Source: Acidobacteriota bacterium (GTDB lineage Bacteria > Actinomycetota > Acidimicrobiia > ATN3). From it: a DNA stretch of 51,257 bases. The notes below the pieces were generated by a model. It made no database searches. It was given only the letters and a program-made list of their open reading frames with translations, and was not told the DNA's origin. The position numbers and the translations under genes were made by a program. Below, one piece after another: positions 26,962 through 36,935 of this stretch; the stretch's first letter is position 1; every line of letters starts with the position of its first letter. The stretch covers positions 1-51,257 of the forward strand of contig QEUQ01000013.1 in NCBI GenBank assembly GCA_003577105.1. The letters run 5' to 3'.

Positions 26962-28056
26962 CTACCAGCGGCTCGGGACTACGGGCTTGGGCGACGCGGT
27001 CCATCGCTTACCAAAAACGAGAATCACCGGAATCGTGGCAATCAGCGGGGCAATCAACCAGAAGGGCCGCCAGGCCCACCAGCTGAGTGTTGGCTCGGGC
27101 TCAGGCCGGTAGCCCAGCGCGAGCACCGCAGCCATAACGATTGCGTAGCCAGTTGAGTGAAAGAGGTACAGCGGGAGAGCAAATCGGTTGATCACATCGT
27201 TGACCCTCTCCCACCGGGGCCGCTCAAGGCGCTCGAGCACCCAGGCGCGAATCAGCAGAACCACACCAACCTGGAAGAAGAGCAAAGCAACGATGCACAG
27301 CGTTGGCGGCCCCATGTTGGAGAAGTCATCACCCGGAACTCCGACCATTGACCCGGGATAGATATTCGTGTTGACCAATGCGATGAGCGCGATCAGACCC
27401 CCTAGGGCCATGGCTAATGCAATCTTGCGGGGTGCGCTCACGAGCCGCTCGTAGTAGAAACCCAGCTGGTGACAGAGTCCCCAGACAATCACGAAGTTGA
27501 GCAGCGCCACCCAGGTGATCTTGTTGGCGAAGCGAGCAACATCAACGAGAATCGCGCATCCCGCGAGGAGGACAACCACAACTGGATCAGAGCGTTTGTG
27601 CGCCCAGATAGCGATCGGTGCGATCACGACCAGCATCATGTAAACGACGATGAACCAGAGCGGGCTGATAATCAGCAGGACTGTCTTGCCGAGCCACGGA
27701 GCATTGACCAGCGTGCCGACGATGATACCGAGGGCGATCCAGGTGCCGGCGAGGGCTGCTGACGGTATGAGAAGGCGCTTGGCCCTGCCCCCGACAAACG
27801 TCCAGTAGCCGCCGCCCGACGCTCGATTTTTCTCCCAGACTTTGAGATGCGCGAATCCGCCAACGAAGAAGAAGACCGGCATGACCTGGAGCAACCAAGT
27901 CAGGAGCCATAGCCCGTCGGTGAAGGCGATTGGGTTCGAGGCCGACGGTCCCGTTTCCGACCAGATAATGATTGTGAATACCCAGTGCCAGATGACCACG
28001 ACAATCAAGCTGAAGGCCCGGCAAAAATCTACGAACTCGTCGCGCGCCGCGCCCAT
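26962..28056 (-). CDS. Membrane acyltransferase (Acyl_transf_3/OafA-like)
   Basis: 364 residues with about ten membrane helices. The N-terminus has the family signature DFCRAFSLIVVVIWHWVF: Arg, then about ten residues to the catalytic-type His. MPVFFFVGGFAHLKVWEKN and the C-terminal LPLYLFHSTGYAIVMAA are also typical. These enzymes O-acetylate or acylate sugars and lipids at the envelope. There is no SGNH domain. It overlaps the upstream APH/P-loop gene by one base. The acceptor is unknown. Confidence 0.87.
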   Translation of the reverse strand: MGAARDEFVDFCRAFSLIVVVIWHWVFTIIIWSETGPSASNPIAFTDGLWLLTWLLQVMPVFFFVGGFAHLKVWEKNRASGGGYWTFVGGRAKRLLIPSAALAGTWIALGIIVGTLVNAPWLGKTVLLIISPLWFIVVYMMLVVIAPIAIWAHKRSDPVVVVLLAGCAILVDVARFANKITWVALLNFVIVWGLCHQLGFYYERLVSAPRKIALAMALGGLIALIALVNTNIYPGSMVGVPGDDFSNMGPPTLCIVALLFFQVGVVLLIRAWVLERLERPRWERVNDVINRFALPLYLFHSTGYAIVMAAVLALGYRPEPEPTLSWWAWRPFWLIAPLIATIPVILVFGKRWTASPKPVVPSRW

Positions 28057-29504
28057 CAGGGAAGGCAGCCCACGACTTGTTCAAGCGGTGAGGCCCCGTC
28101 ACCGGTATCGATCACAAGAGCCTCTGGCCAGGAATCGAACCGCATCTCTCTCGCCACACGCTCGTCTGCATCGGAAGGATCCATTCCCTCGGCGCGCCGC
28201 CTGCTTATCCGCTCCAAAGCCACATCTTCAGAACACCGGCACTCGGCCTCAATTATGTCGGCGTGGACTTCCGCTGCGGCGGCTCTGGCGATCACCCTCT
28301 CCTCGGCCCTGCTCCAAGAAGCATCGAGGATGACCGGCTCACCAAGTGACGCCAAGACTTTGGCTTGCTCGATCATCGCCTCGTATGTGCGGTGATTCCA
28401 CGATTCCGAGTAGATCCCCTCGCCGAGGTCAGACGCCCAATTCTCACCTGGGGGGACTCCCGCAAGCTCCTTGCGAATCACATCGGACCTCAACACCGGC
28501 CAGCCGAGATGCTCGGAGAGCGCAGCGGCGAGTGTCGACTTCCCGGTGCCGGGCCGCCCGCCAACTGTGAGGAAGCAGACTTGGGCGCGTCGAAGGTGAG
28601 CCTCGGAAATTCCAAGCAACTTTGCCGCTTGGCCAGATGAGTCAGCGTCGCCCTGCCCGAAGCGCAAACCGGCCACCTTTGAACGGATCAGCGCGCGCAA
28701 CGCTATGTAGTGGTGCATCAAGGTGTCTGGCGCAGTCTCGCCGGTGAACTCGTGATACCGACGCAAGAGGATCTGGGCGAGCTCAAGGTGGCCGAGCTGC
28801 TCGAGATCCATGACCAGGAAGGCTATGTCGGAGATGACGTCACCCCACCGCAGCCTGTCGTCGAACTCGATGCAATCGAGAATCACAGGCACGGGATCGA
28901 TGCAAAAGATGTCAGCTGCCAGCAAGTCGCCGTGGCCGTCCTTGATGCACCCGCTTCTGATCCGAGACTCGAACAAGGCCCTCCTCCCGAGGAGGTAGCG
29001 AGACGCAAGCTCGCGACATCTTCCAATTGAGTCCGCCTCCAGCACGGCGATCCCGGCCATCTCGTCGAGATTTGCCGACCAATTGGCCGCCAGAGCCTCG
29101 AGCGTGGCGACCGAAGAAATCTCGGCGGAGGTCAACGCCGACAAGTGGAACTCGGCAATCTTTCGCGCGATTGCAGTCATGCAGTCCTCGACGTCAGCAC
29201 CAGCCGAAACCAAGTGAGCTAGCGAGCGATTCGCGGGCATTCGCTTCATGACCAGCACAGGCTCAACGGCCTCGCCGTTGGAATCCACCAAGTCCATCAC
29301 GTCTAAATATGCCTCGGGGGAGATCCGGCTATTCAACTCGAGCTCCCTCACCAGGGCTGCCCGGCGCTTCTCCCTCGTCGAGAAATCCACGAATTCAAAT
29401 CGAACGGGCTTCTTGAACTTGTATGCGCGCTCACCGTTGAAGAAGACGACTCCGCAGTGAGTCTCCGCGACGCCTGCGCCTGCCTGTCCATATGATTCAT
29501 GCAT
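28056..29504 (-). CDS. Bifunctional APH-like kinase / P-loop ATPase protein
   Basis: 482 residues joining an aminoglycoside-phosphotransferase-like N-terminal part (COG2187 type; GHGDLLAADIFCID and ILDCIEFDDRLRWGDV give the catalytic and Mg loops) to a C-terminal nucleotide kinase (COG0645 type) with Walker A GGRPGTGKSTLAAALSEHLG and WPVLRSDVIRKELAG. This fusion is widespread in bacteria and often annotated with this name, but its substrate is not established. The first domain has GDLLAADIF, with Ala where many kinases have Asn, so its activity is uncertain. Confidence 0.83.
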   Translation of the reverse strand: MHESYGQAGAGVAETHCGVVFFNGERAYKFKKPVRFEFVDFSTREKRRAALVRELELNSRISPEAYLDVMDLVDSNGEAVEPVLVMKRMPANRSLAHLVSAGADVEDCMTAIARKIAEFHLSALTSAEISSVATLEALAANWSANLDEMAGIAVLEADSIGRCRELASRYLLGRRALFESRIRSGCIKDGHGDLLAADIFCIDPVPVILDCIEFDDRLRWGDVISDIAFLVMDLEQLGHLELAQILLRRYHEFTGETAPDTLMHHYIALRALIRSKVAGLRFGQGDADSSGQAAKLLGISEAHLRRAQVCFLTVGGRPGTGKSTLAAALSEHLGWPVLRSDVIRKELAGVPPGENWASDLGEGIYSESWNHRTYEAMIEQAKVLASLGEPVILDASWSRAEERVIARAAAAEVHADIIEAECRCSEDVALERISRRRAEGMDPSDADERVAREMRFDSWPEALVIDTGDGASPLEQVVGCLP

Positions 29505-29548: not shown

Positions 29549-30127
29549 CTACTCTCGATCTACCCCGTCGAGGATAAGCGACACTGCCATCTTCGTAACG
29601 TCAGCTTTGGAATAGCCCTTTTCAATTTGCCAAATCGCCGAATCCACGATCCTCAGGATCATCATTGCCGTGACGTCTGGATTCTCGTCACCCAAGTCCT
29701 TGAGCGCCGCGGCCAGCGGAGCAATCAAATCCTGGACCATTTCGGTCAGCGACTTGATCACGAACTTGCTGAGATTGGATTGGCGCAAGGCTGCCGCAAG
29801 TTCCATTCCCCCGTCGGTCGCGATCCCCATCAAGGCTTCTATATAAGCCTCGACGCGGCCCCGCGGACTGGTAACTCCCTCAACACCTGCCTTGACCGCC
29901 GCTTCCCAAGTTGGAATGTCCTGTTCAAGTACTGCGAGAATGACGTCGTCCTTGTTGACGAAGTAGTCGTAGATGCTTGTCCTTGAGACTTTGGCCTTGG
30001 CTGCTACCTCGCCTAGTTTCAGATCTGCATAACCCTTGTCGATCAGAACTTCGCGAGTGCCTGCGACGATCGCAGCGATCACCCGCTCCCGGTGCTCAGC
30101 CACCGTGGGGGCCGATATCTTTGGCAT
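29549..30127 (-). CDS. TetR/AcrR family transcriptional regulator
   Basis: 192 residues. HTH domain: VIAAIVAGTREVLIDKGYAD, then KAKVSRTSIYDYFVNKDDV. The remainder is a helical effector domain. It is divergent from the MoxR operon with 167 bp between, so that operon is the most likely target together with itself. No ligand is inferred. Confidence 0.88.
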   Translation of the reverse strand: MPKISAPTVAEHRERVIAAIVAGTREVLIDKGYADLKLGEVAAKAKVSRTSIYDYFVNKDDVILAVLEQDIPTWEAAVKAGVEGVTSPRGRVEAYIEALMGIATDGGMELAAALRQSNLSKFVIKSLTEMVQDLIAPLAAALKDLGDENPDVTAMMILRIVDSAIWQIEKGYSKADVTKMAVSLILDGVDRE

Positions 30128-30294: not shown

Positions 30295-31275
30295 GTGTCT
30301 ATTGCAGAACAAGTAAGGCCCGAACTCGCGCCGAGAATTGGCTCCGCGATCGCCTCGGTGCTCAACGATGTAATCAAAGGCAAGTCGGGGCAGGTGGCGA
30401 ACGCAATCGTCGCGCTGCTCGCTGGTGGTCATTTGCTGCTCGAGGACGTACCTGGTGTTGGCAAGACCAGGCTGGCGCGCTCAATTGCAGTCGCTATCGG
30501 CGGGCAGTTCGCCCGCGTGCAGGCAACCCCTGACCTTCTGCCTCAAGATCTCACGGGGAGCAACATCTTTGACAGGTCAACCAATAGCTTCGTCTTCCAG
30601 CCAGGTCCGGTCTTTGCAAATGTGGTACTCGTCGATGAGCTCAACCGCACAACGCCCCGGACCCAATCAGCGCTGCTAGAGGCAATGGAGGAGCACCAAG
30701 TCTCAATTGAAGGGAAGTCCTACAAACTCCCTGTGCCGTTCTTTCTTGTGGCAACCCAAAATCCGCTCGAGCACCACGGCACCTATCCTCTGCCCGAGGG
30801 CCAGCTCGACCGCTTCATGATTGCGATGCAGCTTGGCTACCCGGATCACGCCGACGAGCTCTCAGTCCTCCAAGCAGGTGCCCAGGGCGCACTTCACGAT
30901 GCGCTCCGCCCGGCGTGCGCACTTGAGGATCTCATCGCCGCAAGGCGCGAGGTAAAGGGCATCCACGTCAGTCAGCCCGTGCTCGAGTATGTACTCAACC
31001 TGATCAAGGCGACGCGGACCGTTCCCGGCGTGATGATCGGAGCAAGTCCGCGTGCCGGTCTCGCGCTCGTCGCCGCATCGCAAGCCCGAGCGGCCATGCT
31101 TTCGCGTGGCTATGTGCTCCCAGATGACGTCAAAGCGCTCGCCCCCAATGTTCTTGCGCACAGAATCGTCTTTGCAGGAGCGGGGCAGTCCGATCATCGA
31201 TCGGGTGACGCGCTCATCCGTAAGCTGCTGACGACGACCCCCGTGCCAGTAGCGGCACAAGGTGCGCCCGTTTGA
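30295..31275 (+). CDS. MoxR-family AAA+ ATPase
   Basis: 326 residues. Walker A GVGKTRLARSIA, Walker B VLVDELNRTTPRTQSALLEA, sensor 1 LVATQNPLEHHGTYPLPEG and the arginine finger in QLDRFM are intact. MoxR ATPases act as chaperones that mature or activate partner proteins, usually with a DUF58/VWA protein, and that gene follows with a small overlap. The start is GTG 30295 with GAGGAG upstream. Confidence 0.94.
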   Translation: MSIAEQVRPELAPRIGSAIASVLNDVIKGKSGQVANAIVALLAGGHLLLEDVPGVGKTRLARSIAVAIGGQFARVQATPDLLPQDLTGSNIFDRSTNSFVFQPGPVFANVVLVDELNRTTPRTQSALLEAMEEHQVSIEGKSYKLPVPFFLVATQNPLEHHGTYPLPEGQLDRFMIAMQLGYPDHADELSVLQAGAQGALHDALRPACALEDLIAARREVKGIHVSQPVLEYVLNLIKATRTVPGVMIGASPRAGLALVAASQARAAMLSRGYVLPDDVKALAPNVLAHRIVFAGAGQSDHRSGDALIRKLLTTTPVPVAAQGAPV

Positions 31276-31297
31276 GGTTCAGGAGCTAGCGCTGCCG

Positions 31298-32488
31298 ATG
31301 AGCGGGAAGGCCAGGAGCGAGAAGCGCCCGATGCCACGGCCTACTGCGCTCGGAATTCTCATGATTCTGGCGGCCGCGGTGATGCTCGTAATTGGAGCTC
31401 GCTCCAGGAATCCGGCGTTGACGCTCTCTGCCGCGCTGCTGCTCGGGATCATCGGGGCATCTGCCTACCTGACAGTTCGCAATGTTGAGCGCGCGGTCGT
31501 CGAGCGAGACACCACGCTGAGGGGGCAGGTCGGCCATCCGGTGCCATTTCGCCTCGAAGTCACCTCACCTAGATCGCTTGGGGGGTTTCTGATTGCGAAA
31601 GACCGGAACTTCGGGGTGCGTCCAGCGCTCGTCCCGACAAAGGGCGGGCGCTACGAAGGGAGCTGGCTTCTCTTACTCACCCAGAGAGGGCGTTGGACGG
31701 AACTGCGGACGGCGCTCGCCTGCTCAATGCCGATGGGTCTATTCGTCGCAAAGCGTGAGTTCAAATCCGACGCAGATGTCGAGATAGGTCCTGCTACCTC
31801 AGAGGTCGAGCTGCCTGCCTTCCTCCAGCACGTCGATGGCCCCGGCGAGCGCCAGTCACGACCTCCTCGGGCCGGAAGAGGCATCGACTACTTGAATATC
31901 AGGGAGTACCGCCACGGGGATCGGATCCGTCACATTCATTGGAGAGCTTCGGCTCGCCACGACGATCTCCTGGTGAGGGAGTTTGAATCCGAGGGGCACG
32001 CGACTCTTGTAGTCGCGCTCGACACACAGGGAGTGTTTCGCCACTTTGAGACCGAGGAATCGAGCAGCTATTTCGATCTGACGAGCGTCACTCCGGCTGC
32101 TCCGAGCGTGAGCCTCGGCGATTACGCGAGTGAACGCGCCGTCTCGGTTGCAGCAAGCATCGCGCTCGCCGCACTCAGAGAGGGCGATGTGGTCTACCTG
32201 CTCACGGCCTCTCAGGGACTCGTCAAGGCGAGGTCCCGAGAAGAGGTCATGTCCTTCTGGGCGAATGTCGAATTCGGCATGCATCAACCGGTGACGCGCT
32301 TGATTGCGGACATCCCCCCACGGACGCAACTTGCCATTGTCGGAGCAGGTCCGCTGATTCCATACATCTCGGAAATCCCCGAATCCTCTGCTTTGTTTCT
32401 CGTGAGTCCGCCCGTCTGGTCACCTGTACCCACCTGGTACGTGCCAATGGAAGGTCCGCTGTGCTTCCTGCCTCAGCCGGCGGCGTGA
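31298..32488 (+). CDS. DUF58-domain membrane protein
   Basis: About 396 residues. Two N-terminal membrane helices (ALGILMILAAAVMLVIGA and ALTLSAALLLGIIGASAYL) precede an extended soluble region. The DUF58 signature is clear: GRGIDYLNIREYRHGDRIRH, IHWRASARHDDLLVREFE, then VVALDTQ. It is the usual MoxR partner. ATG 31298 follows AGGAG and gives a normal N-terminus; an in-frame GTG at 31262 would overlap moxR by 14 bp. Confidence 0.9.
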   Translation: MSGKARSEKRPMPRPTALGILMILAAAVMLVIGARSRNPALTLSAALLLGIIGASAYLTVRNVERAVVERDTTLRGQVGHPVPFRLEVTSPRSLGGFLIAKDRNFGVRPALVPTKGGRYEGSWLLLLTQRGRWTELRTALACSMPMGLFVAKREFKSDADVEIGPATSEVELPAFLQHVDGPGERQSRPPRAGRGIDYLNIREYRHGDRIRHIHWRASARHDDLLVREFESEGHATLVVALDTQGVFRHFETEESSSYFDLTSVTPAAPSVSLGDYASERAVSVAASIALAALREGDVVYLLTASQGLVKARSREEVMSFWANVEFGMHQPVTRLIADIPPRTQLAIVGAGPLIPYISEIPESSALFLVSPPVWSPVPTWYVPMEGPLCFLPQPAA

Positions 32489-34998
32489 AGACTGACGCGC
32501 AATACCGGATAGCGGTCCTCGTCGCCGCGGTCTGCTCGTTCCTCGGATATGCGATCGCGGGGCGATCGGGGGCGCTGACGTGGACCGCCGTAACCGGACT
32601 AGTTCTCTACATAGGTGGCTGGTTCGCCTCGCAGTACGTGAGAGCAGAGGTGGAGCGCTCGCAATCGGAACCCGTCAAGCTTCTGCGCAAGATCCGCACC
32701 GCAGTTCTGATAATCACCGGCTTTGCCGCAGTCGGATGCCTGGTGATTTTGCTTCGCAGAGCTGCGCCGGAGACCGCAATCGCGTCGGCGGTCTTTCTGG
32801 CAGGCGCGTTCGCGGCAGGGCAGTCCTTTGCGCTCTTCGAGCGCTCGGATCTGTCGGGATCCCTCTTGATTACCGCTCCGGGGGCAATTGTCGGCGCCGC
32901 CTCACGCTCTCCGCTCCCGGTTGTCATTTTCATAGCAATCGTCTGGCTCGCAGCGGTGGCCGTCGCTCTAACCCTGTTTCACGCATCCGAGCTTCAGTCC
33001 AGACTCGAGCACTCAGAGCCGGCCGTGGAGCAAGAAGGCAGGGACTGGTGGCCCTCTTTGTTTGCGAAGATCCTTCCCGTCATTGCAGTCATCGCATTGC
33101 TGATCGCGCTTCTAAGTCCGCTTCTCACATTTGAGCTCCCGAAGTTTGAGAGAGAGACCCCGACAATCGGTAAGCCACCACAGGGGAGAGATAGGACCCC
33201 TCAACCCGGAGGTACTGCCTCACCGTCCCGAACCCCAGGTGCCGACGACGGATCCGATTCCGGCAACGGCGGGGCGGGGGGAGGCTCAGGGAATCCGGAT
33301 TCAGGCGGCGGGGCCGGTGGTAGCGGCGGGGCCGGTGGTCGCGGAGACGACAGTGGAGCCGCCGGCGACCACGCTGGCGGTGAGCCCGGCCAGGAGGCGA
33401 GAGGACCGGGGGACGATCCCGGCCAGGAGCCCGGGGGTTCGGGGGACGATCCCGGCCAGGAGCCCGGGGGTTCGGGGGACGATCCGAACCAAGGAAATGG
33501 GAGCAACGGCGAGACGCCGGGGGGTAGCTCACCTGACGGAAGCACACCTGGGGGCGCCGAGCCGGGAAACTCGGGCGACTCGGGCGACTCCGGCAGCTCT
33601 GGCGGAGGCGCCACGGGAAGAACGCCCGCAAGCCCAACGTCGCCGCGGCCGCGCACACCCTCGATCGCGCCACAGATCACCGCCACTCCCTCTCCATCGA
33701 GTCAGCAGGGCGAGGAATTCGAACCGAGCCTGTCGCTTCCGTCTGGAGAAATTCGCTCTGACGACACTCCGGTCATGCGAATCAAAGCGCCATTTCCGTG
33801 GTACTGGAGAGGTGTGGTCTTTGACACCTACACAAACGGCACCTGGCAGCCAGGAGGTGGCGAGGCGAGGAAGCTCAAGTGGGGCGACGTTCCGGAGGAG
33901 GATGGGTCTTCTGGCTACGGGGGAAGCTTTGAGGGGCGCGTCTCGGTCTTCAACACCAGGTCAAGCGCCATATTCACCACGTATCGCACCGAATCGCTCA
34001 GCTTTGACGGTCCAAGTCCGCCAGCCATTTCAATTCGGCCGGACATGGTCATTTCGTCAAGCCGGCCTGCTAATGACATCACCTATACGGTCAAAGCGCT
34101 CATCCCAGACTCCAATCCAGATGTGCTGCGCGATGCCGACGGCAAGGCCCCGCCAGGTTTCGAGCGATACCTCCAGGTGCCCGACTCGATTTCGCCGCGA
34201 GTTTTCGAGCTTGCAGCCGAGATCACCAAGGGGCGCGATGGTCGCTACGAAAAGGCAGTTGCAGTAATCGAGTACCTGAGAAGTCAGTCGAGTTCCGCCG
34301 AACGAGTAGAGCCTCCCCCCGAAGGTGTTGATCCAATCGAGCACTACTTGTTCGAGGGAGGTTACGTCGGGTTTTCGAACCATCTCGCCTCGGCGACTGC
34401 AATTCTGCTCAGGGCGAATGGCATCGAAACCAGAGTGGTAAGCGGATACGTTCCGCGCAACCCGGCGGACCCCGACGGTTTCCTAATAAGACGTTCAGAT
34501 GCCTACGACTGGGTCGAGGTCTATTTCCCGGGATCGGGCTGGGTGACATTCGACGCCGGACTCGGTGCACTCAAACCTGATGTCCACATCTCAGGCTGGC
34601 AGCAATTTGTGAGGTGGCTCAAGAAGAACTGGTTTTGGCTGCTCGCAATTGCAATTGTCGCCGTGCTCATTGCGGCTGCGGGGCTGCGCGCGCTGAGGCG
34701 ACGCGTGGCGCAGACACCCGCGCGCACCGAGGCTCAGGACCTCCTCACCCGCCTCGAACGTGCCGCCCGCTATGGTCGCCTCGCGCCCCAGACGCCATTT
34801 GAGTACGCGCGCGCCTTGAGATGGAAGCTCCTCCCCGATGACGGTGCTCGCGCCGAATCGGTACTTGCCCTAATAGCCGAGGCCGCGTATTCGGGGCGAC
34901 CGATGACTCCCGAACAGCGTCAAGAAGCACTTGTTGCGGTCGAACGAATCAGGCACAACGAATCAAGGCGCCGAGGCGAAGATGACCAGGCCGGATAG
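32461..34998 (+). CDS. TgpA-like membrane protein with inactive transglutaminase fold
   Basis: 845 residues: six to seven N-terminal membrane helices (DUF3488-like), a low-complexity Gly/Pro/Asp/Ser segment (about 235-410), a periplasmic transglutaminase-like domain, one membrane helix (NWFWLLAIAIVAVLIAAAGL) and a cytoplasmic C-terminal DUF4129-like domain. In active TgpA proteins the core reads GxCEHFAS and later DAHAWVEV. Here the equivalents are GFSNHLAS (Ser639 for Cys) and DAYDWVEV (Tyr682 for His); only the Asp (698) is kept. The fold motifs LLRANGIETRVVSGY and GWVTFDAG are well preserved, so it looks like a pseudoenzyme. GTG 32461 follows GGAAGG; GTG 32485 (GTGA overlap with the DUF58 stop) is the alternative. 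Confidence 0.88.
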   Translation: MLPASAGGVKTDAQYRIAVLVAAVCSFLGYAIAGRSGALTWTAVTGLVLYIGGWFASQYVRAEVERSQSEPVKLLRKIRTAVLIITGFAAVGCLVILLRRAAPETAIASAVFLAGAFAAGQSFALFERSDLSGSLLITAPGAIVGAASRSPLPVVIFIAIVWLAAVAVALTLFHASELQSRLEHSEPAVEQEGRDWWPSLFAKILPVIAVIALLIALLSPLLTFELPKFERETPTIGKPPQGRDRTPQPGGTASPSRTPGADDGSDSGNGGAGGGSGNPDSGGGAGGSGGAGGRGDDSGAAGDHAGGEPGQEARGPGDDPGQEPGGSGDDPGQEPGGSGDDPNQGNGSNGETPGGSSPDGSTPGGAEPGNSGDSGDSGSSGGGATGRTPASPTSPRPRTPSIAPQITATPSPSSQQGEEFEPSLSLPSGEIRSDDTPVMRIKAPFPWYWRGVVFDTYTNGTWQPGGGEARKLKWGDVPEEDGSSGYGGSFEGRVSVFNTRSSAIFTTYRTESLSFDGPSPPAISIRPDMVISSSRPANDITYTVKALIPDSNPDVLRDADGKAPPGFERYLQVPDSISPRVFELAAEITKGRDGRYEKAVAVIEYLRSQSSSAERVEPPPEGVDPIEHYLFEGGYVGFSNHLASATAILLRANGIETRVVSGYVPRNPADPDGFLIRRSDAYDWVEVYFPGSGWVTFDAGLGALKPDVHISGWQQFVRWLKKNWFWLLAIAIVAVLIAAAGLRALRRRVAQTPARTEAQDLLTRLERAARYGRLAPQTPFEYARALRWKLLPDDGARAESVLALIAEAAYSGRPMTPEQRQEALVAVERIRHNESRRRGEDDQAG
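33412..33484 (+). repeat. 33-bp tandem repeat in the TgpA-like gene
   Basis: Two identical 33-bp copies (33412-33444 and 33445-33477) plus the start of a third encode DDPGQEPGGSG units in the low-complexity linker. The unit is a multiple of three, so copy number can vary without breaking the frame. Confidence 0.85.
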
Positions 34999-35090
34999 CT
35001 TTCACTGCTACCCTTAAGTGCCCCCGATCTAAAGGCACAGCGGCTCAAGTGCCGATCTCTCGGACCAGGACAGCGGGGAGGCTGCGCCAA

Positions 35091-36935
35091 ATGCTACGCA
35101 AGGCAATTTGCCTGTCAACTCTCATAGCCGCGCTACTCGCGCCACTCTTGGTGCCCGCTGCGGCTCATGCCGAAGTTGTACCGATCATCTTTCCGGTCAG
35201 CGGCGGCGCTTCATATTCAAACGACTACGGCGCCCCGAGATCCGGTGGCCGGACTCACGGCGGCAATGACCTCTTCGCCCCCAAACGCAGACACCTGGTA
35301 GCAGCCGAAAACGGCTACATCAACTGGTGGCTGAAGAATCAGGGGCTCTCAGGAAACATGTTGGAGCTCGTGGGCGAGTCGGGATACCGATACTGGTACA
35401 TCCACATCAACAACGACAATCCCGGTACTGACGACGGCGCCGGCGGGGACCGGTGGGCATGGGCTCCGGGAATCGAGCCGGGAGCTCCGGTGCGCGCCGG
35501 CCAATTCATTGCCTATCTCGGTGACTCCGGCAATGCGGAAGGCACATCCCCTCATCTGCATTTCGAGATCCACTACCCAGACGGAACGCGATTCAACCCT
35601 TACGACAGTCTCAACGCCGCCACGCACTGGGAAGAGCCGGATCCCACTGGCGGCTTTGCATTCCATGAATACCTGACGATTCAGAATCCGGGAAGCAGCA
35701 CCGCAACGATCGCTCCCAAGTACATCGTCAACGACGGCACTCCTCCGCAGACCGGTGACACGCTAGTCGTACCGCCCAAGTCCCGCCGCACCGTCAGAGT
35801 CAACGACGCGATACCCAACAAGGAGATCTCCGCAGAGCTCAGCTCGACTGTGCCAATAGTGGCCGAGCGCCCGATGTACTTCGGATATGGGCCGTGGATC
35901 TGGACCGGCGGGCATGTAGGCATGGGTCTGCAATCGCCACGAACTACGACATACTTCGCCGAGGGCTATACCGGCTCGGGATTCGAGCAGTACCTGACTC
36001 TCACCAACATGAACCCGACTGCCGCAACAGTCGACATCGAGTACTTGATTCGCGGCGGAGGCAACGTCAATCAGCAAGTTGTCGTGCCTCCAAATCGCCG
36101 CTCTACCGTCAATGTCAGGGGGCCAGTTGGTGACGACAAACATGTCTCGGCCGTGGTCCGCTCCGATATCCCAATCTTGAGCGAACGCCCGATGTACTTC
36201 GACTACAAGGGCTGGACCGGTGGGCATGTCGGTTCCGGGGTGCAAACCCCATCTCAGGCGTTTTATTTCGCCGAGGGCTACACGGGTGATGGATTCGACG
36301 AGTACCTGACGGTGGCGAATCCCACGACCGAGACTGCCCAAGTAACTGTCAACTTCTTGTTCAAGACTGGCTCGCCAATCCCCTACACCTTCTCGGTCGG
36401 GCCGCTTACGCGAGAGACGTTGGATGTGCGGGCGCTAGCCGGAAACAACAAAGAAGTATCCATGCGCGTCACGTCTGACACTCCGATCGTCGCCGAGCGA
36501 CCGATGTACTTCAATAACGGATGGAGCTATTGGCTCGGCCCTGTGAGTGGCGGACACGTCGCGGTTGGGGCTACGACGCCGCTGACGGAGTGGCTCTTCG
36601 CCGAGGGATACACCGGCACCGGATTCCAGGAGTACCTGACGCTGCAAAATCCCAATCCGACCTCTGCCTCAACAACAATCGAGTATCAGGGGCAGGGGGG
36701 AATCATCAAGACCTCGAACGTCTCAATCCCGGCCAATTCAAGATTCACCGTTGATGTCAACGGAGATATCGGTGACGGCCGGGAGGTCTCGGTTCGCATA
36801 TCGGCTAATCAGCCAATCGTGGCCGAGCGACCGATGTACTTCAGATATCTGGGGATTTGGACCGGTGGGCACGTCGCGGTCGGCGCACCTGCATCTGCTA
36901 ACACCTGGCTCTTCTCAGAGGGTTACACCGGCTAG
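35091..36935 (+). CDS. Secreted M23 (LytM-like) protein with four C-terminal repeat modules
   Basis: 614 residues with a signal peptide (hydrophobic core LIAALLAPLLVPA, cleavage near AHA). The M23 domain (about 30-175) has the zinc ligands in RTHGGNDLFAP and SPHLHFEI, plus WYIHINNDN, so it could cleave peptidoglycan or another peptide. After it come four modules of about 105 residues, each starting [YL]FAEGYTGxGFxEYLTLxNP (module 1 is shorter) and ending VAERPMYF. The protein stops just after a fifth module begins, at WLFSEGYTG. ATG 35091 has GGGGAGG about nine bases upstream; GTG 35049 is less likely. Expected location is the cell surface. Confidence 0.88.
   Translation: MLRKAICLSTLIAALLAPLLVPAAAHAEVVPIIFPVSGGASYSNDYGAPRSGGRTHGGNDLFAPKRRHLVAAENGYINWWLKNQGLSGNMLELVGESGYRYWYIHINNDNPGTDDGAGGDRWAWAPGIEPGAPVRAGQFIAYLGDSGNAEGTSPHLHFEIHYPDGTRFNPYDSLNAATHWEEPDPTGGFAFHEYLTIQNPGSSTATIAPKYIVNDGTPPQTGDTLVVPPKSRRTVRVNDAIPNKEISAELSSTVPIVAERPMYFGYGPWIWTGGHVGMGLQSPRTTTYFAEGYTGSGFEQYLTLTNMNPTAATVDIEYLIRGGGNVNQQVVVPPNRRSTVNVRGPVGDDKHVSAVVRSDIPILSERPMYFDYKGWTGGHVGSGVQTPSQAFYFAEGYTGDGFDEYLTVANPTTETAQVTVNFLFKTGSPIPYTFSVGPLTRETLDVRALAGNNKEVSMRVTSDTPIVAERPMYFNNGWSYWLGPVSGGHVAVGATTPLTEWLFAEGYTGTGFQEYLTLQNPNPTSASTTIEYQGQGGIIKTSNVSIPANSRFTVDVNGDIGDGREVSVRISANQPIVAERPMYFRYLGIWTGGHVAVGAPASANTWLFSEGYTG

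Follow-up and report, generated by a model that had tools for sequence, protein, structure and literature searches.

The window analyzed here is a stretch of 51,257 nucleotides (contig QEUQ01000013.1, GenBank assembly GCA_003577105.1) from a bacterium of the class Acidimicrobiia, and it encodes a TgpA-type membrane protein whose transglutaminase domain has lost both its catalytic Cys and its catalytic His. This protein, which we call TgpA*, is the product of an operon that also codes for a MoxR-type ATPase and a DUF58 protein. Because the catalytic residues are lost and the surrounding genes are intact, TgpA* probably holds or binds a component of the cell wall, rather than cutting or cross-linking it. 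With confidence slightly above even, we favor the view that the operon was duplicated and that its TgpA turned into a subunit that faces the wall and binds without catalysis, its partner being perhaps the neighboring M23-DUF5719 protein.

MoxR-DUF58-TgpA operons are distributed over many phyla, and what DUF58 and the operon as a whole do is not settled. In the operon described here, nature has presumably taken the chemistry away and left MoxR, DUF58 and a wall hydrolase conserved, so that the catalytic role is separable from the rest. Intact and dead TgpA proteins in one genome also allow a direct comparison, and the M23-DUF5719 protein offers a testable partner.

Replacement of the catalytic residues in TgpA*

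The earlier note, made from the sequence alone, read this gene as TgpA-like, and the reading holds: the open reading frame (ORF) encodes 845 amino acids from a GTG start, with no internal stop. A second GTG, located at 32485 and overlapping the stop codon of DUF58, could be the true start, and the choice between them has no effect on the finding of residue loss. Pfam matches to TgpA_N (45.1 bits; cut-off, 30), Transglut_core (70.7 bits; cut-off, 23) and DUF4129 (32.0 bits; cut-off, 24.8) occur in the order that defines the TgpA family.

Among solved structures, the best phmmer match is Pseudomonas aeruginosa TgpA (PDB 6g49; E = 3.5e-15). In this alignment, GFCAHYAG of 6g49 pairs with GFSNHLAS of TgpA*, and DAHAWVEY pairs with DAYDWVEV, which confirms the proposed replacement of Cys by Ser639 (codon TCG) and of His by Tyr682 (codon TAC). 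The Cys/His/Asp triad of an active TgpA-type enzyme is thus reduced to its Asp. All Cys residues of the protein were located (residues 25 and 93, both inside the membrane bundle), and none lies in the extracytoplasmic part; an alternative Cys, a possibility raised in the earlier note, was thus looked for and not found. TgpA* is presumably without catalytic activity.

The fold appears to be kept, as had been supposed. An AlphaFold model of the TgpA* head, built with an alignment of 33 relatives, has a predicted local distance difference test score (pLDDT) of 85.1 and a predicted template modeling score (pTM) of 0.86. Its top structural match is again 6g49 (Z = 26.4; root-mean-square deviation of 2.9 A over 261 residues), so the predicted model has the extracytoplasmic fold of TgpA. 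Ser639 (model residue 228) is the first residue of a helix and falls in an alignment column of nearly invariant Cys; Tyr682 (model residue 271) is on a strand, in a column of nearly invariant His. Weaker structural matches include protein 4.2 (7uzs; Z = 8.6).

A stretch of 337 residues connects the membrane bundle to the transglutaminase domain, and 209 of them are of low complexity. This count is by far the highest among 120 measured proteins; the orthologue in another genome of the same order (G001, see below) ranks second, with 87. Such residues are absent from both intact paralogues in the order, as they are from 82 of the 120 proteins. Three copies of a 33-bp repeat at 33385-33485 lie within the stalk, and are a possible source of length variation among strains.

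The loss of Cys and His is rare. We collected 138 ORF hits in the class, and dropped those that were shorter than 110 residues or identical, which left 122 rows representing 96 genomes in 43 families; these are the best matches from 296 class genomes and not a random draw. Both residues are kept in 118 of the 122 transglutaminase domains, and every one has Asp or Glu as its third residue, so the replacement in TgpA* goes beyond chance. The four exceptions are TgpA*, the G001 orthologue and two proteins of other families that keep their His, in genomes G224 (Ala at the Cys position) and G137 (Pro). Genes for the latter two sit behind DUF58-like and MoxR genes (assigned by eye, and for MoxR also by tree), and the proteins group together in a 51-row tree (support 100/99). 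The G224 gene adjoins genes that by eye resemble tig and clpX.

We also conducted a MoxR-based scan across bacteria, in which the best 80 of 591 loci were kept. A transglutaminase ORF is present in 42 of these 80, and all 42 keep Cys and His (one of them aligned in two pieces). A further 32 loci, comprising 28 new loci from a phylum draw of 396 genomes and four that were added separately, are intact throughout, again with one aligned in two pieces. As with the class set, both samples consist of best matches and are not random draws. A first scan of genome contigs for other dead TgpA relatives found none.

Two operons in two genomes

Within the order, the comparison rests on G001, a genome of a different family. 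Gene order is common to the two genomes: a kinase gene is followed by MoxR, DUF58, TgpA* and M23-DUF5719, and then by MazG and SurA-like genes (the kinase, MazG and SurA-like names were given by eye). In the G001 orthologue, Gly is found in place of Cys (RGTGDDAV) and Thr in place of His (ERTTWVEV), the Asp is kept and the frame is open. The earlier note had asked whether close relatives restore the active residues, and this one does not. Since the loss is common to two families and the replacements differ, a sequencing slip is ruled out, and a long absence of the chemistry is favored. Orthology of the two TgpA* genes is argued mainly from synteny, because trees do not join them consistently.

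The MoxR and DUF58 genes lie directly upstream of TgpA*, as was noted before, and the M23-DUF5719 gene starts 50 bases downstream. Its product has intact M23 motifs (HxxxD, YIH and HLHFE) and an N-terminus that, by eye, resembles a signal peptide; a gene for a DUF4349 protein (Pfam) comes next. DUF5719 repeats define a protein family with an FAEGYTG motif, which is represented at 35049-36935, where it is fused to M23, and in 14 other frames of the genome. We did not find the term DUF5719 in the literature searched. Upstream of the operon, a two-part kinase-like protein (named by eye; 28056-29504) is encoded in both genomes, with 46% identity. A TetR gene (29549-30127) separates it from MoxR in the window genome, and is absent from this position among the listed ORFs of the G001 locus. 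Coordinates of the principal features are given in Table 1.

Table 1. Features of TgpA*, its operon and two other Cys-less relatives. Positions refer to the window unless a locus (L167 or L168) is named.
Feature	Position	Strand	Basis or remark
MoxR-type AAA+ ATPase (AAA_3), opening the operon	30295..31275	+	Pfam
DUF58 protein, overlapping both neighbors	31262..32488	+	Pfam
TgpA*, TgpA-type membrane protein with non-catalytic transglutaminase domain	32461..34998	+	845 aa
N-terminal membrane bundle, with hydrophobic stretches at aa 15-36, 77-102, 107-125, 142-178, 196-229	32503..33147	+	Simple hydropathy
Gly/Pro/Ser/Asp-rich stalk, aa 230-418	33148..33714	+	
TgpA_N match, aa 397-550 (stalk end and extracytoplasmic beta domain)	33649..34110	+	Pfam PF11992, model
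Transglut_core, aa 584-699	34210..34557	+	Pfam PF01841, predicted fold
Ser639 codon TCG, catalytic Cys position	34375..34377	+	Alignment with TgpA relatives
Tyr682 codon TAC, catalytic His position	34504..34506	+	Alignment with TgpA relatives
Asp698 codon GAC, third triad residue, kept	34552..34554	+	
C-terminal membrane helix, aa 719-747	34615..34701	+	Hydropathy
DUF4129, aa 759-827	34735..34941	+	Pfam PF13559
M23 peptidase followed by DUF5719 repeats, candidate partner	35049..36935	+	Pfam
Cys-less TgpA, Ala at the Cys position, His and Asp kept	L167 8215-10233	-	Other family of the class, MoxR-DUF58 operon
Cys-less TgpA, Pro at the Cys position, His and Asp kept	L168 3259-5616	-	Other family of the class, MoxR-DUF58 operon

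The window genome has a second MoxR-DUF58-TgpA operon, on another contig (C85), whose TgpA is intact (GFCEQ and DAHAW). A search of the genome with PF01841 detected these two proteins and no third match. The intact gene faces one for a DUF5719-repeat protein that, from sequence alone, we read as a peptidoglycan-recognition amidase. In the window genome, the 3' ends of these two genes overlap by 13 bases (L035 4398-9424); in G001, the genes likewise face each other, 29 bases apart (L034). Both types of operon are therefore present in both genomes. The intact operon, the stalk and the M23-DUF5719 neighbor are additions to what the earlier note had described.

Between the two genomes, identities in the TgpA* operon are 71% for MoxR, 45% for DUF58, 26% for TgpA* and 58% for M23-DUF5719. 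Corresponding values for the intact operon are 66%, 36%, 43% (TgpA) and 46% (the peptidoglycan-recognition protein-like, or amidase-like, DUF5719 protein). All genes of the TgpA* operon except TgpA* itself are thus at least as conserved as their counterparts. An M23 domain search matched 200 of 296 class genomes, and the G001 copy is the closest (74% identity; the next is 58%). The operon is not decaying, and neither sign of a pseudogene, namely a broken frame or neighbors that decay along with it, was found for TgpA*.

In a quick tree of MoxR proteins, the two copies from TgpA* operons join (support 100) and adjoin the two copies from intact operons (SH-aLRT 82). This placement fits an operon duplication within this order or at an earlier stage, and such a duplication is the origin that we infer for TgpA*, on the strength of one moderately supported tree. 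The tree also groups the MoxR of another genome of the class (G108) with a named MoxR from Acidimicrobiia, in line with the class assignment. Transglutaminase trees are too uneven in rate to settle the origin. A careful tree of 51 rows joins the two TgpA* orthologues (97/95), with the warning that long branches meet there; when either orthologue is left out, the one that remains is placed in an open, basal fork of the same group. A clade of all four TgpA genes of the order is not rejected by a topology test (approximately unbiased test, p-AU = 0.093). The idea that TgpA* was copied recently from the intact TgpA of its own genome was considered and discarded, as a clade of the two is rejected (p-AU = 0.003).

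A single loss of Cys, common to the window lineage and to that of G224 and G137, is not rejected by the transglutaminase tree (p-AU = 0.128). Two separate losses, one in each lineage, are preferred although not proven, because the quick MoxR tree sets the two operons apart.

Proposed function and alternative explanations

In the mechanism that we propose, the copy of TgpA in a duplicated operon has lost its transglutaminase Cys and His, and has retained the membrane bundle, beta domain, predicted transglutaminase fold and DUF4129, with a very long flexible stalk in the window copy. The stalk would extend the folded head into the wall, where the head may bind a peptide (of a protein or of a wall stem) that an active TgpA would process, and MoxR and DUF58, on the inner side, would control the state of TgpA*. 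This is the sense in which the suggestion that the protein binds rather than cleaves can be carried forward. Peptide binding by the head, the identity of the partner and the direction of control all belong to this conjectural part. The likeliest client would be the M23-DUF5719 protein, in which case the operon would be a control device for one wall hydrolase. We suggest this client because of its position in two genomes, the presence of a DUF5719 protein beside both operons and two precedents, one mycobacterial and the other RloB, that are discussed below.

Several observations weigh against this proposal. The M23-DUF5719 gene adjoins TgpA* in two genomes of one order only, DUF5719 frames are fairly common in the window genome (26 matches spread over 15 frames, of which 12 exceed the cut-off, in 2.87 Mb) and the FAEGYT motif is absent from four other TgpA neighborhoods of the class. 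The low-complexity count of the G001 stalk is barely above that of an intact relative (87 versus 85 residues; locus L103). Because the structural model was built with an alignment of active relatives, it leans toward their fold; it also covers the window head alone, and the G001 head carries about 34 inserted residues. In a first, quick transglutaminase tree of 122 rows, the two orthologues did not join and lay in an open fork. Finally, their end branches in the transglutaminase domain tree are 1.93 and 2.24, as compared with a median of 0.58; the domain evolves fast, so part of the change may reflect relaxed constraint.

This last point leads to an explanation that we consider unlikely, in which the head is a relaxed remnant, a passenger drifting toward loss after the duplication, while MoxR, DUF58 and the membrane and DUF4129 portions do the work of the operon. 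TgpA* is indeed the fastest gene of its operon, given its low identity and long branches. However, its frame is open in both genomes, the window head is confidently predicted to fold and keeps its core motifs, and MoxR and DUF58 are better conserved here than in the intact operon. Moreover, the longest stalk of the 120 proteins is an addition and not a loss.

Somewhat harder to credit is a role in regulating the intact TgpA that shares the cell, as a subunit whose dead head pairs with it or competes for its substrate. All four genomes with a Cys-less copy do hold an intact TgpA, but two TgpA rows per genome are common anyway (at least 26 of the 96 genomes of the class set), and the separate MoxR and DUF58 of each operon argue for separate clients.

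It is highly improbable that the head has remained an enzyme by using a different nucleophile, such as Ser639 with His641 acting as base. Papain-like families with Ser or Thr in the site, or with a displaced His, are described in PMC10318531, and His641 is only two residues after Ser639. Yet neither residue is kept in the G001 orthologue, which has Gly and Asp at these positions (GTGDDAV), and TgpA itself reads Cys-Ala-His here, so His641 is an ordinary residue of the family. An artefact of sequencing, assembly or frame can be set aside for practical purposes: the Tyr codon TAC is one base from the His codon CAC, but the Ser codon TCG is two bases from either Cys codon, adjoining motif positions are changed as well (CEQ to SNH), the listed completeness and contamination of the genome are 95% and 0.42%, and a syntenic orthologue in another family carries different non-catalytic residues.

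Beyond our preferred reading of TgpA* as a binding subunit, it is conceivable, though we would not presume it, that TgpA is repeatedly converted, in MoxR-DUF58-TgpA operons, from an enzyme to a wall sensor or adaptor that lacks catalysis. Such a conversion probably occurred at least twice in the class, in the window lineage (both residues lost) and in that of G224 and G137 (Cys lost, His kept). In that case, substrate capture with mechanical or regulatory control by MoxR would be the central task of the whole system, and transglutaminase chemistry would be optional.

Comparison with known inactive transglutaminases and MoxR operons

Inactive transglutaminase domains are already known in bacteria (the RloB type and polymorphic toxins) and in animals. 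Among the literature matches listed, we found no report of an inactive TgpA-family protein, in a MoxR-DUF58 operon or otherwise, in a search that covered mostly papers outside subscription.

Pfam has a model for the RloB-type family, and the Pfam scan of TgpA*, which returned four families at E-values up to 1, did not include it. That type, in which an inactive transglutaminase is fused to seven membrane helices, is a different family, with ATP-grasp and retropepsin-like partners and with 96% of its hits in Proteobacteria (PMC12239564). The same paper places P. aeruginosa RloB in one pathway with secreted proteases, one of which is encoded in its operon. No ATP-grasp or retropepsin-like gene is present among the five scanned neighbors of TgpA* (TetR, MoxR, DUF58, M23-DUF5719 and DUF4349).

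P. aeruginosa TgpA (PA2873; PF11992 and PF01841) resembles TgpA* in its domains and in the predicted extracytoplasmic fold. According to PMC3507681, it likewise belongs to a gene cluster, has a conserved triad, and showed transglutaminase activity in measurements on the purified domain. TgpA* differs in having lost Cys and His and in its long stalk.

In polymorphic toxins, transglutaminase domains have lost at least one triad residue, and surface anchoring by peptide binding has been proposed for them (PMC3482391). They occur in fusions with RHS repeats and toxin domains, whereas TgpA* is encoded together with MoxR and DUF58. Erythrocyte protein 4.2 (band 4.2, EPB42) has a catalytically inactive transglutaminase fold (PMC10318531) and is termed an inactive structural protein (PMC13073648); it is an animal protein without a MoxR operon, unlike TgpA*.

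A parallel in operon context is mycobacterial. There, moxR1 adjoins ripAB, and an interaction between MoxR1 and the wall hydrolase RipA has been reported, so that MoxR-DUF58 genes stand beside a wall hydrolase as they do in the TgpA* operon. The hydrolases in that case are of the NlpC/P60 type and not M23, and the protein that the paper names after DUF58 is a vWA protein and not TgpA (PMC12067865).

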